DNA of 64,000 nt from Akkermansia sp. (GTDB lineage: Bacteria > Verrucomicrobiota > Verrucomicrobiia > Verrucomicrobiales > Akkermansiaceae), in NCBI GenBank assembly GCA_017399165.1, contig JAFQEF010000022.1, forward strand, positions 1-64,000. The letters are read 5' to 3'. Both the position numbers and the translations under genes were made by a program. Of this stretch, positions 52,676 to 55,678 are shown piece after piece. Below the pieces are notes generated by a model. The model made no database searches. It saw nothing but the letters and a program-made list of their open reading frames with translations, and had not been told where the DNA came from. Positions within the stretch are counted from its first letter, which is position 1; each line of letters starts with the position of its first letter.

Positions 52676-54598
52676 ATGAGCACATACGGTTATCATAGAC
52701 TGGCTGCGGCGGTTCCGCGCGTGCGCGTGGCGGACGTAGAATTTAACACAACAGAGCTTATCTCAGCAACGGAACAAGCGGCAGCGCAGGGGGGGGCCGT
52801 AGTGTGTTTTCCCGAGCTGTGTATTACCTCCGCTTCTTGTGCGGATTTGTTTTTTCAGCCCGCTTTGTTAAAGGCTGCGGAGGCCGGGTTAACCCGTTTT
52901 GCCAACGAAACGGCACAATTACCCATTGTGTCGATTGTAGGTTTGCCGTTGTTGTTGGATGATAAGCTGTTTAATGTGGCTGCCGTGGTGCAGGGCGGTT
53001 TTGTGCGTGGTTTTGTCCCCAAGAGCATTATACCTAATAAAAGAGAGAGCTACGAGCGCCGTCAGTTTTCTCCCGCCGCCATGCTTACTCGTACCGAGGT
53101 AGCGTTGTTCGGAGACTGTTTCCGCATACCTGTTGGTACCGATTTGATTTTTGAGGTGGATGATGAGCTCAAGTTCGGCATTGAAATTGGCGATGATGCT
53201 GGCGCCCTGTTGCCACCCTCCACCCGTTTAGCCATGCAGGGGGCTCGCGTTATACTGAATCCGTCTGCGGCAATATCCATAGCCGGACGTGGTGAGTATA
53301 ACCGTAATCTCATTGCGGCACGTAGTGGCAGCTGTATTGCTGCGTATGTGCATGTGGGTGCCGGGGTTCACGAAAGTACGCAAGACGGCGTGTGCGGTGG
53401 CTATGCCCTGATTGCGGAGAACGGACGCCTTGCCGCACAAAATGAACCGTATGCACGAGAGCTCAGCATGGTATATGCAGATGTTGACATGCAGCGTTTG
53501 GGTGCAGCCCGCCTGAGTGAGAGCAATTTCTGTGATAATTTATTGCAGGCGGAGTGGCCACAGCCTCGCTGCGTGCAGTGCCATATAGATGCCCAGAGCT
53601 GCGATTTGAAATATGCGTATTTGCCGCCGCGCCCCTTTGTGCCGGATCCGGAAATTGCTGCAAGCCGTTGTGAAGAAATCCTCAATATACAGGCCGCAGC
53701 GTTAGCAAAGCGTATAGAGTGTGCCTATGCAAAAACGCTGGTAATAGGCGTATCCGGCGGGTTGGACAGCACCTTGGCCTTGCTGGTGTGTGACCGTGCT
53801 TGTAAATTGCTCGGGCGTAGCAATGACTGCATTTTAGCCATTACCATGCCCGGGTTCGGCACCACCGGGCGCACCTACAACAATGCTGTAAAGATGATTA
53901 AGCTTTTGGGGTGTAACTTTAAGGAGGTTAATATCAAAGAAGCCTGCCTGCTGCACTTTAAGGATTTGGACTTTGACCCCGCCTTGCGCACCAATACCTA
54001 CGAGAATGTACAGGCTCGTGAGAGAACCAAATTGCTCATGAACTTGGCCAACAAAACAGGTGGTATGGTAGTGGGTACGGGCGACCTCTCCGAGATTGCC
54101 CTCGGCTGGGCCACCTACAATGGCGACCATATGAGTATGTACGGGGTCAACTGCTCTATCCCCAAATCCCTCATACGTTGTCTGATAGAATATACCGCTA
54201 CTATATCAGCCCCCGCATTGGCAGAGGTGTTGAGGGATGTTAATGCAACCCCGGTGAGCCCGGAGCTGTTACCGCCCTCTGACGATGGTAAGATTGATCA
54301 AAAGACGGAGGAAATCCTCGGGCCGTATGATTTGCATGATTTCTTCCTTTATCATTTCATTAAATATGGGGCAGAACCTGCTAAGTTGAAAGCATTAGCC
54401 TTGCATGCCTTTGCCGGTGAATATGAGGAGCCTTTGATTGAGAGCACGCTGCGCATGTTCCTGCGGCGCTTCTTTACGCAGCAATTTAAGCGCACCTGCG
54501 TGCCGGATGGCCCCAAGGTGGGCACTATTGCGCTCTCTCCGCGTGGGGATTGGCGCATGCCTACCGATGTAAACGGAGCCATTTGGCAACGCTCATAA
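52676..54598 (+). CDS. nadE: NAD+ synthetase, glutaminase-type length but Cys lost
   Basis: Final step of NAD synthesis: amidation of deamido-NAD. 640 residues with an N-terminal nitrilase-fold glutaminase domain (about 1-290) and a C-terminal synthetase domain with the PP-loop SGGLDSTLAL at 360-369. Of the glutaminase triad, the Glu (FPELCITS, Glu47) and the Lys region (KSIIPNKRESYERR) are present, but the nucleophile position in FGIEIGDD is Gly172, where the family has Cys (FGxEICED). The enzyme therefore probably cannot use glutamine and would need free ammonia. The synthetase half looks intact, with GTGDLSEIALGW. Confidence 0.92.
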   Translation: MSTYGYHRLAAAVPRVRVADVEFNTTELISATEQAAAQGGAVVCFPELCITSASCADLFFQPALLKAAEAGLTRFANETAQLPIVSIVGLPLLLDDKLFNVAAVVQGGFVRGFVPKSIIPNKRESYERRQFSPAAMLTRTEVALFGDCFRIPVGTDLIFEVDDELKFGIEIGDDAGALLPPSTRLAMQGARVILNPSAAISIAGRGEYNRNLIAARSGSCIAAYVHVGAGVHESTQDGVCGGYALIAENGRLAAQNEPYARELSMVYADVDMQRLGAARLSESNFCDNLLQAEWPQPRCVQCHIDAQSCDLKYAYLPPRPFVPDPEIAASRCEEILNIQAAALAKRIECAYAKTLVIGVSGGLDSTLALLVCDRACKLLGRSNDCILAITMPGFGTTGRTYNNAVKMIKLLGCNFKEVNIKEACLLHFKDLDFDPALRTNTYENVQARERTKLLMNLANKTGGMVVGTGDLSEIALGWATYNGDHMSMYGVNCSIPKSLIRCLIEYTATISAPALAEVLRDVNATPVSPELLPPSDDGKIDQKTEEILGPYDLHDFFLYHFIKYGAEPAKLKALALHAFAGEYEEPLIESTLRMFLRRFFTQQFKRTCVPDGPKVGTIALSPRGDWRMPTDVNGAIWQRS

Positions 54599-54615: not shown

Positions 54616-55086
54616 TCAATGCCCACCGGCCCTACCAATAACGCCGGAGGTATCACTGTGCCCTTTTTCCTCTGCCTTTTGCAGGGCTGTTTCTCCTTTT
54701 CTGTCTCGAATGTCGGGGTCTGCATTAGCATCCAACAAAAGGGATACGATTTCTGTTGCCCCTGACTCTGCTGCAATCATAAGGGCGGTTTCGCCCTGCT
54801 CGTTCTGCATGTCTACATTAGCACCGTTGTTTACCAACACGCGTACAATATCTTCCTTATTACGCTCTGCAGCCTCCATTAAGGCCGTGCTGCCACTTTC
54901 ATCTATGGAGTTGATGCTGATGCCTTCTGCCAGAATACTACGCAATTTGTCACCGCCGCCGCGTGCTGCATGGTATACCTCTTCCTTTTGGGAGGCATAA
55001 GAGTTTGTTGAGGCGGCGGCCAATGGTATTAGTACGGCAGCAGCCAGTGTAGCTGCAATGATGTTGTATATGATAATCTCTTTCAT
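54616..55086 (-). CDS. Small secreted ankyrin protein, 156 aa
   Basis: Signal peptide or membrane anchor (about 8-25), then three to four ankyrin repeats with consensus ETALMIAAESGATEIVSLLLDANAD. The ATG at 55086 is chosen; a TTG 12 bases upstream is possible. The last repeat ends abruptly in GHSDTSGVIGRAGGH. It is a paralogue of the next gene, with strongest similarity in the first two repeats. Partners unknown. Confidence 0.82.
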   Translation of the reverse strand: MKEIIIYNIIAATLAAAVLIPLAAASTNSYASQKEEVYHAARGGGDKLRSILAEGISINSIDESGSTALMEAAERNKEDIVRVLVNNGANVDMQNEQGETALMIAAESGATEIVSLLLDANADPDIRDRKGETALQKAEEKGHSDTSGVIGRAGGH

Positions 55087-55175
55087 TTTTTTACTCAAGG
55101 GGTGTTCTATTAGCGGCCTTACTTATACCCCCTCATGTGCATTCCGTCAAATCTAATTTTCAAATTGTTAGGCAG

Positions 55176-55228: not shown

Positions 55229-55678
55229 TCAGCGGGCTCCGGCAGCGCGCAGCAGTTCCACTACTTGGTGGTTGCGTTCATCGAGCGCTTTGTCCAATGC
55301 TGTTTCGCCGTCTTCATCTCGGGCGTTGAGGTTGGCTCCCGCCTCAATAAGTATACGCACGGCTTCTACGTTGCCTTCATCTGCGGCAATCATGAGGGCT
55401 GTTTCGCCATCCTCATCTGCTGCGTTGACATTGGCGCCATTGGCTATCAATACGCGTACAGCCTCCGCATTGCGACTGTCTGCCGCCTCCATCAATGCCG
55501 TCTCTCCATCGTTGTCGGTTGCATTGATGTTTACCCCTTGTTTCAGTAGGGCTTTAAGTGCGGCATCTCCACTACGGGCTGCTCTCAATACTTGCCTTTG
55601 CGGGTGATTGTACGGCTCGTCGGCATGAAGCACAGGGGCTAATACTGCAATTAAGGTGATATAGAGTGCTTTTTTCAT
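55229..55678 (-). CDS. Small secreted ankyrin protein, 149 aa
   Basis: Signal peptide MKKALYITLIAVLAPVLHA followed by four highly regular ankyrin repeats (GETALMEAADSRNAEAVRVL and relatives) in which every repeat carries the DGETAL turn. It is a paralogue of the 156-residue protein downstream. It is one of few genes here with both a normal leader (about 28 bases) and a purine-rich ribosome-binding sequence (AAAGGA) before the ATG. Confidence 0.85.
   Translation of the reverse strand: MKKALYITLIAVLAPVLHADEPYNHPQRQVLRAARSGDAALKALLKQGVNINATDNDGETALMEAADSRNAEAVRVLIANGANVNAADEDGETALMIAADEGNVEAVRILIEAGANLNARDEDGETALDKALDERNHQVVELLRAAGAR

Follow-up and report, generated by a model that had tools for sequence, protein, structure and literature searches.

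A glutaminase domain without its nucleophile cysteine in the NAD synthetase of gut Akkermansia suggests free ammonia as nitrogen donor

In both classes of NAD synthetase (NadE) NaAD is adenylated and the resulting intermediate then reacts with ammonia. By hydrolysing glutamine on site, amidotransferases can do without abundant free ammonia. In yeast Qns1 the Cys is reportedly essential in vivo; ammonia alone is therefore not sufficient everywhere. Human NadE shows about equal kcat/Km for glutamine and ammonia, and free ammonia is accepted by two-domain NadEs (PMC6946656). The NadE of M. tuberculosis carries a Cys/Glu/Lys triad and forms an octamer with ammonia tunnels that run between the subunits (PMC6946656), and its C176A protein folds and binds substrates (structures 3sez, 3seq and 3szg). 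A precedent for a retained dead glutaminase domain is provided by vertebrate carbamoyl phosphate synthetase I (CPS1), which has lost the glutaminase Cys (Ser294 in the human enzyme) but keeps the domain and uses free ammonia (PMC4655335).

The nadE gene described here (Table 1) was found in the window, by which we mean the whole stretch of 64,000 nucleotides analysed; the genome to which it belongs is referred to as G000. Its product matches NF002730/PRK02628 over the whole length with 751 bits (cut-off 473), identifying it as a family member by descent, and contains both PF00795 (CN_hydrolase) and PF02540 (NAD_synthase). The best Foldseek match of its AF2 model (mean pLDDT 85) was the C176A mutant of M. 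tuberculosis NadE (3sez; TM 0.90, 36-37 % identity), and the M. tuberculosis enzyme is also the closest solved relative, aligning through 3dla with 397 bits. Inspection by eye places menD, a menB-like and a menC-like gene on one side of nadE and ankyrin-repeat genes on the other, two small ankyrin-repeat-like proteins (54616-55098 and 55229-55678, both on the minus strand) adjoining it.

Table 1 Features of the window nadE gene and of carA in the same genome (tb, M. tuberculosis numbering)
Feature	Position	Strand	Sequence or basis
nadE, two-domain NAD synthetase, PRK02628 type, 640 aa	52676..54598	+	LKFGIEIGDDAGALLPPSTR
Nitrilase-fold glutaminase domain, residues 3-286, predicted catalytically dead	52682..53533	+	relaxed invariant columns
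Glu47, acid/base Glu (Glu52 tb), kept	52814..52816	+	31/31 of Cys-less group
Lys116, catalytic Lys (Lys121 tb), kept	53021..53023	+	3dla alignment
YRE loop, residues 122-127, KRESYE vs YREFYE	53039..53056	+	loop roles from PMC6946656
Codon GGC, Gly172, opposite nucleophile Cys176 of M. tuberculosis NadE	53189..53191	+	3dla alignment
Residues 173-176, DDAG vs canonical EDLW; gate Glu and glutamine-pocket Trp/Phe gone	53192..53203	+	
Synthetase domain, residues 322-640, intact	53639..54595	+	121/125 invariant columns kept
SGGLDS pyrophosphate-binding loop, residues 360-365, intact	53753..53770	+	invariant in alignment
carA of G000, glutaminase Cys lost	G000:C90:21426-22565 (L274:1417-2559:-)	-	

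The original prediction held that a Gly occupies the glutaminase nucleophile position while Glu47, the Lys segment and the synthetase half are kept. This observation proved correct, because Gly172 aligns with Cys176, Glu47 with Glu52 and Lys116 with Lys121 of the M. tuberculosis enzyme; the synthetase half retains SGGLDS and nearly all invariant columns. The extent of change is larger than had been supposed, with the glutamine pocket altered beyond the nucleophile: Glu177 has become Asp173, Phe/Trp180 Gly176, Tyr127 Lys122, Phe130 Ser125 and Tyr58 Ala (M. tuberculosis residue first), the second Glu of the YRE loop (Glu127, Glu132 in M. tuberculosis) being kept. The Cys-Glu-Lys triad, by which glutamine-dependent NAD synthetases are catalytically defined, is incomplete, the pocket residues Tyr127, Phe130, Glu177 and Phe180 are likewise missing, and the synthetase active site expected of the ammonia-dependent class (SGGxDS and the invariant columns) is intact. 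The window NadE shares with that of M. tuberculosis whole-length homology, the two-domain fold, the catalytic Glu and Lys and an intact synthetase domain, but differs in its Gly in place of Cys176 and its eroded pocket; it resembles the laboratory C176A mutant. With the single-domain NadEs (TIGR00552) it would share free ammonia as the expected donor; it is however not of that type, having 640 aa and two domains instead of a single synthetase domain of ~260 aa, and appears to retain a full-length non-catalytic glutaminase domain.

We consider it probable (roughly 0.86) that the window NadE is an active NAD synthetase amidating NaAD with free ammonia, and that its N-terminal nitrilase-fold domain is a pseudo-glutaminase. 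The synthetase domain would adenylate NaAD and ammonia from solution would then attack the intermediate, with glutamine presumably neither bound nor hydrolysed. The same reading, a domain kept for structure in an enzyme making NAD with ammonia, had been put forward originally, and from the sequence data it appears the best supported, the pocket being lost, the synthetase domain constrained and the glutaminase domain still purified.

The alignment across relatives that had been proposed as a check covered 76 Akkermansia species-level genomes, in which 71 NadE sequences span the nucleophile position. Forty have Cys and 31 do not (26 Gly, 5 Ala), while Cys was present in 72/72 NadEs sampled outside Akkermansia. 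We found neither a natural Cys-less NadE nor any NadE of Akkermansia described in the openly licensed literature searched. Each of the four Gly codons is represented in the Cys-less group, as are three Ala codons, and the loss is therefore old. An assembly or sequencing error, or a decaying gene, might also produce the Gly of the window, as a single base separates TGC from GGC and the assembly (completeness 99.96 %) is in 134 contigs; its presence as Gly or Ala in 31 species-level genomes, with every Gly codon in use, refutes the error, and a frame open over 640 aa together with a synthetase-domain dN/dS of 0.015 (G000 vs G017) argues against decay, so that the chance of either is virtually nil.

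In a tree built from all columns the 31 Cys-less NadEs form one group (SH-aLRT 90). Without the active-site columns, two losses are required by the best trees, the AU test does not reject one clade (p = 0.37), and 90 % of bootstrap trees call for one to three losses. The Cys was thus lost one to three times in Akkermansia NadE, with the G021/G027/G041 branch, where the YRE loop is nearly normal, as a candidate second loss event. Asp or Ala replaces the gate Glu177 in 29/31 Cys-less NadEs, and the pocket aromatics (Tyr127, Phe130, Trp/Phe180 and Tyr58) are gone in most. Complete Cys-less copies are all 635-643 aa in length, the two short ones being contig-end fragments.

Several features count against the pseudo-glutaminase reading. 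Most Cys-less copies still have Glu47, Lys116 and the second Glu, Glu127, which full decay of the domain would not call for (the Lys116 position is Ala in G014, G022 and G029), and 65 % of Cys-less NadEs carry a new Cys240 that is found in none (0 %) of the Cys-bearing Akkermansia NadEs. Such a distribution raises the question of whether another Cys now serves as nucleophile and glutaminase activity persists, Cys240 being the sole candidate; a rough mapping by eye from sequence puts it seemingly close to the tunnel-constriction residues of PMC6946656. We regard this as highly unlikely, since the Ala-bearing enzymes lack Cys240, as do those of G025, G021, G027 and G041, while G014, G022 and G029 carry it despite the replacement of the catalytic Lys by Ala, the glutamine pocket is likewise gone, and the remaining conserved Cys residues, 55 and 220, are common to normal NadEs.

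Constraint on the synthetase domain is very strict, and the glutaminase domain is relaxed yet purified. Of the columns ≥ 95 % identical in Cys-bearing NadEs, which we defined as invariant, 21/62 in the glutaminase domain and 4/125 in the synthetase domain are relaxed in the Cys-less group (Fisher p = 2.5e-8, a test to be read with the columns not being fully independent). The ratio of glutaminase to synthetase branch lengths is 2.59 in lineages without the Cys, compared with 1.22 in those that have it (p = 0.0001 by branch permutation), the glutaminase domain thus evolving, relative to the synthetase domain, at about twice the rate seen in Cys-bearing relatives. Between G000 and G017 dN/dS is 0.127 for the glutaminase domain (0.015 for the synthetase domain, as above), and among close Cys-less pairs glutaminase-domain values are mostly 0.11-0.17, such that purifying selection persists. 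Given these values and the full length of complete copies, the domain is retained under selection; a valueless domain would not stay at dN/dS ~0.12, and we therefore infer a structural role. The pseudo-glutaminase domain may persist because it keeps the oligomer and the path of the ammonia intact.

A search for a second NadE, likewise proposed at the outset, identified no other full NadE in G000 with the window protein as query and no competent second NAD synthetase, PF02540 returning only weaker relatives. Matches on C77 and C72 were read by eye as MnmA-like and QueC-like, and that on C34 falls within a 517-aa frame which also carries a GuaA-type GATase. A NadE-like paralogue of 495 aa and PRK13981 type (paralogue B; L209:674-2161:+ on G000:C106) was rejected as a second NAD synthetase, its SGGxDS loop being gone; its glutaminase residues also appear by eye to be gone. 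SGGxDS is lost in 29/30 copies of paralogue B examined, the exception being G002, which keeps SGGVDS and in which no window-type NadE was found. Paralogue B is kept at ~500 aa in at least 29 genomes (relatives L211-L240).

A separate protein could in principle feed glutamine-derived ammonia to NadE in trans, leaving the enzyme glutamine-driven in the cell, as Thermus thermophilus has an NADS of two subunits, one of them a separate glutaminase (PMC3376133), and the doubly dead paralogue B has been kept across the genus. However paralogue B itself appears by eye to be without glutaminase residues, and by eye no partner gene adjoins nadE in the window, where men genes and ankyrin-repeat genes flank it; we judge supply in trans to be unlikely.

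Direct use of ammonia by NadE would not stand alone in these genomes. In the one CarA found in G000, GMGIGHQ stands in place of GICLGHQ and QYQAAD in place of QGHPEA, both the Cys and the His-Pro-Glu being lost; the reference motifs are those of E. coli CarA, and intact Akkermansia CarA copies show the same. CarB of G000 is full length (1067 aa), and as in CPS1 the GATase Cys is gone and the small subunit kept. The first CarA (CarA1) lacks the Cys in 30/30 Cys-less-NadE genomes with CarA found and in 4/34 Cys-bearing ones (G050, G052, G053 and G056), counts that are phylogenetically non-independent. The chromosomal PurF beside purM begins MSAAIRLLKP versus MSDPLHHECGVAAIRLLKP, the N-terminal nucleophile Cys being lost, and this holds in 9/9 Cys-less genomes in which it was located (G016, G018, G025, G030, G032, G037, G038, G054 and G055; loci L373-L378, L386, L388 and L390), all within the subclade of G000. 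The PurF N-terminal Cys is intact in G048, G001 and G056. PurF of G000 was looked for near carA on C90 and not found there; when class II GATases were sought with PF13522, nothing exceeded the cut-off in seven genomes, though at least three of these have PurF, so that the scan has no bearing on presence or absence.

The Cys is retained in PyrG, GuaA and HisH of G000, and glutaminase loss is therefore selective, with glutamine still used; together with a glutamine synthetase-like gene in G000 this too counts against the ammonia reading, as does the Cys requirement of yeast Qns1. Since CarA of G000 and PurF of nine relatives have lost their Cys, NadE probably belongs to a wider change of nitrogen donor from glutamine to ammonia. 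The annotations "glutamine-dependent NAD synthase" and "glutamine-hydrolysing carbamoyl-phosphate synthase" probably misstate the donor that these genomes use. The combined losses suggest a coordinated shift, of which we found no description in the literature searched.

We identified a single-domain NadE2 (261 aa, ~259 aa) in 10/76 genomes, each of which has a two-domain NadE without the Cys (Fisher p = 1e-4, phylogeny ignored) and none of which is G000. NadE2 is expected to catalyse the same reaction and is found in the same clade as the window NadE, but consists of a single domain and lies beside carA2 and carB2. In the ten genomes the order is carA2-nadE2-carB2, flanked by purF2 and glnA to one side and by dapF/dapL to the other, and gltB lies beyond glnA, divergent, where the contig extends that far, the operon not being wholly spanned by every contig (loci L276-L283, L368 and L369). 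PurF2 (HECAV) and CarA2 (GICLGHQ, HPEA) retain their active-site residues in the copies read. A version without nadE2 is present in G056 (G056:C2, L370). The deep splits of nadE2 and carA2 agree with those of the two-domain NadE, and the operon is therefore old in the group or has moved only within subclades. In a nucleotide-level search, dapL DNA of the operon genome G017 gave matches in G001, G048, G049 and G056 and none in eight Cys-less genomes without the operon, G000 among them, a hint that lysine/diaminopimelate synthesis may be altered.

The second copies in the operon are of exactly the three enzymes found decayed, NadE, CarA and PurF, which bears on why the glutaminases were lost. 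An ancestral operon gltB-glnA-purF2-carA2-nadE2-carB2 may have covered for the chromosomal enzymes, whose glutaminases then decayed, and have been lost later in lineages such as G000; this account is compatible with ammonia dependence today, and its likelihood is not exclusive of that of the main reading. Its presence in ten Cys-less genomes spread over three subclades, where its deep branches match those of NadE, fits such redundancy, as does G056, where an operon without nadE goes with a dead CarA1 and an intact NadE. However the single-domain NadE2 should be ammonia-dependent, and therefore cannot restore glutamine use for NAD or substitute for the glutaminase function; the CarA Cys is lost in G050, G052 and G053 without any second carA; the chromosomal NadE synthetase domain is still under strict selection; and G021, G027 and G041, possibly the earliest Cys-less branch, are without the operon nadE2 and carA2. 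We therefore hold redundancy only as a tentative, somewhat doubtful origin; the operon may have caused the decay or may instead compensate for it.

Synthesis of NAD from free ammonia, the reading we prefer, calls for a supply. Gut ammonium is of the order of 40 mM (cited in PMC5902328), and A. muciniphila, which has no glutamine-dependent GlmS, can grow on GlcNAc, from which NagB liberates ammonium by deamination (PMC5902328). By extension from A. muciniphila, the ammonia would come from the gut lumen and from intracellular deamination of mucin amino sugars, a plausible supply for the uncultured species; the AmtB ammonium transporter (PF00909) was not detected in any of the 76 Akkermansia genomes.

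Taking the three enzymes together, we lean slightly towards a broader picture in which at least NadE, CarA and PurF of some 31 gut Akkermansia species have come to use free ammonia, so that the synthesis of NAD, carbamoyl phosphate and purines depends directly on ammonia and, in some members, the operon restores glutamine-dependent PurF and CarA. The enzymes belong to mutually unrelated amidotransferase classes (NadE nitrilase-type, CarA class I and PurF class II), and the loss of three unrelated glutaminases in one clade is a more interesting result than that of NadE alone. Vertebrate CPS1 is a single enzyme with a class I GATase fold, whereas in Akkermansia NadE, CarA and, in relatives, PurF are affected; if true, this would be a bacterial counterpart of CPS1 spread over several pathways. 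It would offer a testable case of ambient ammonia, from the gut lumen and mucin amino-sugar breakdown, reshaping core metabolism, and predicts ammonia-dependent growth of the uncultured Akkermansia.
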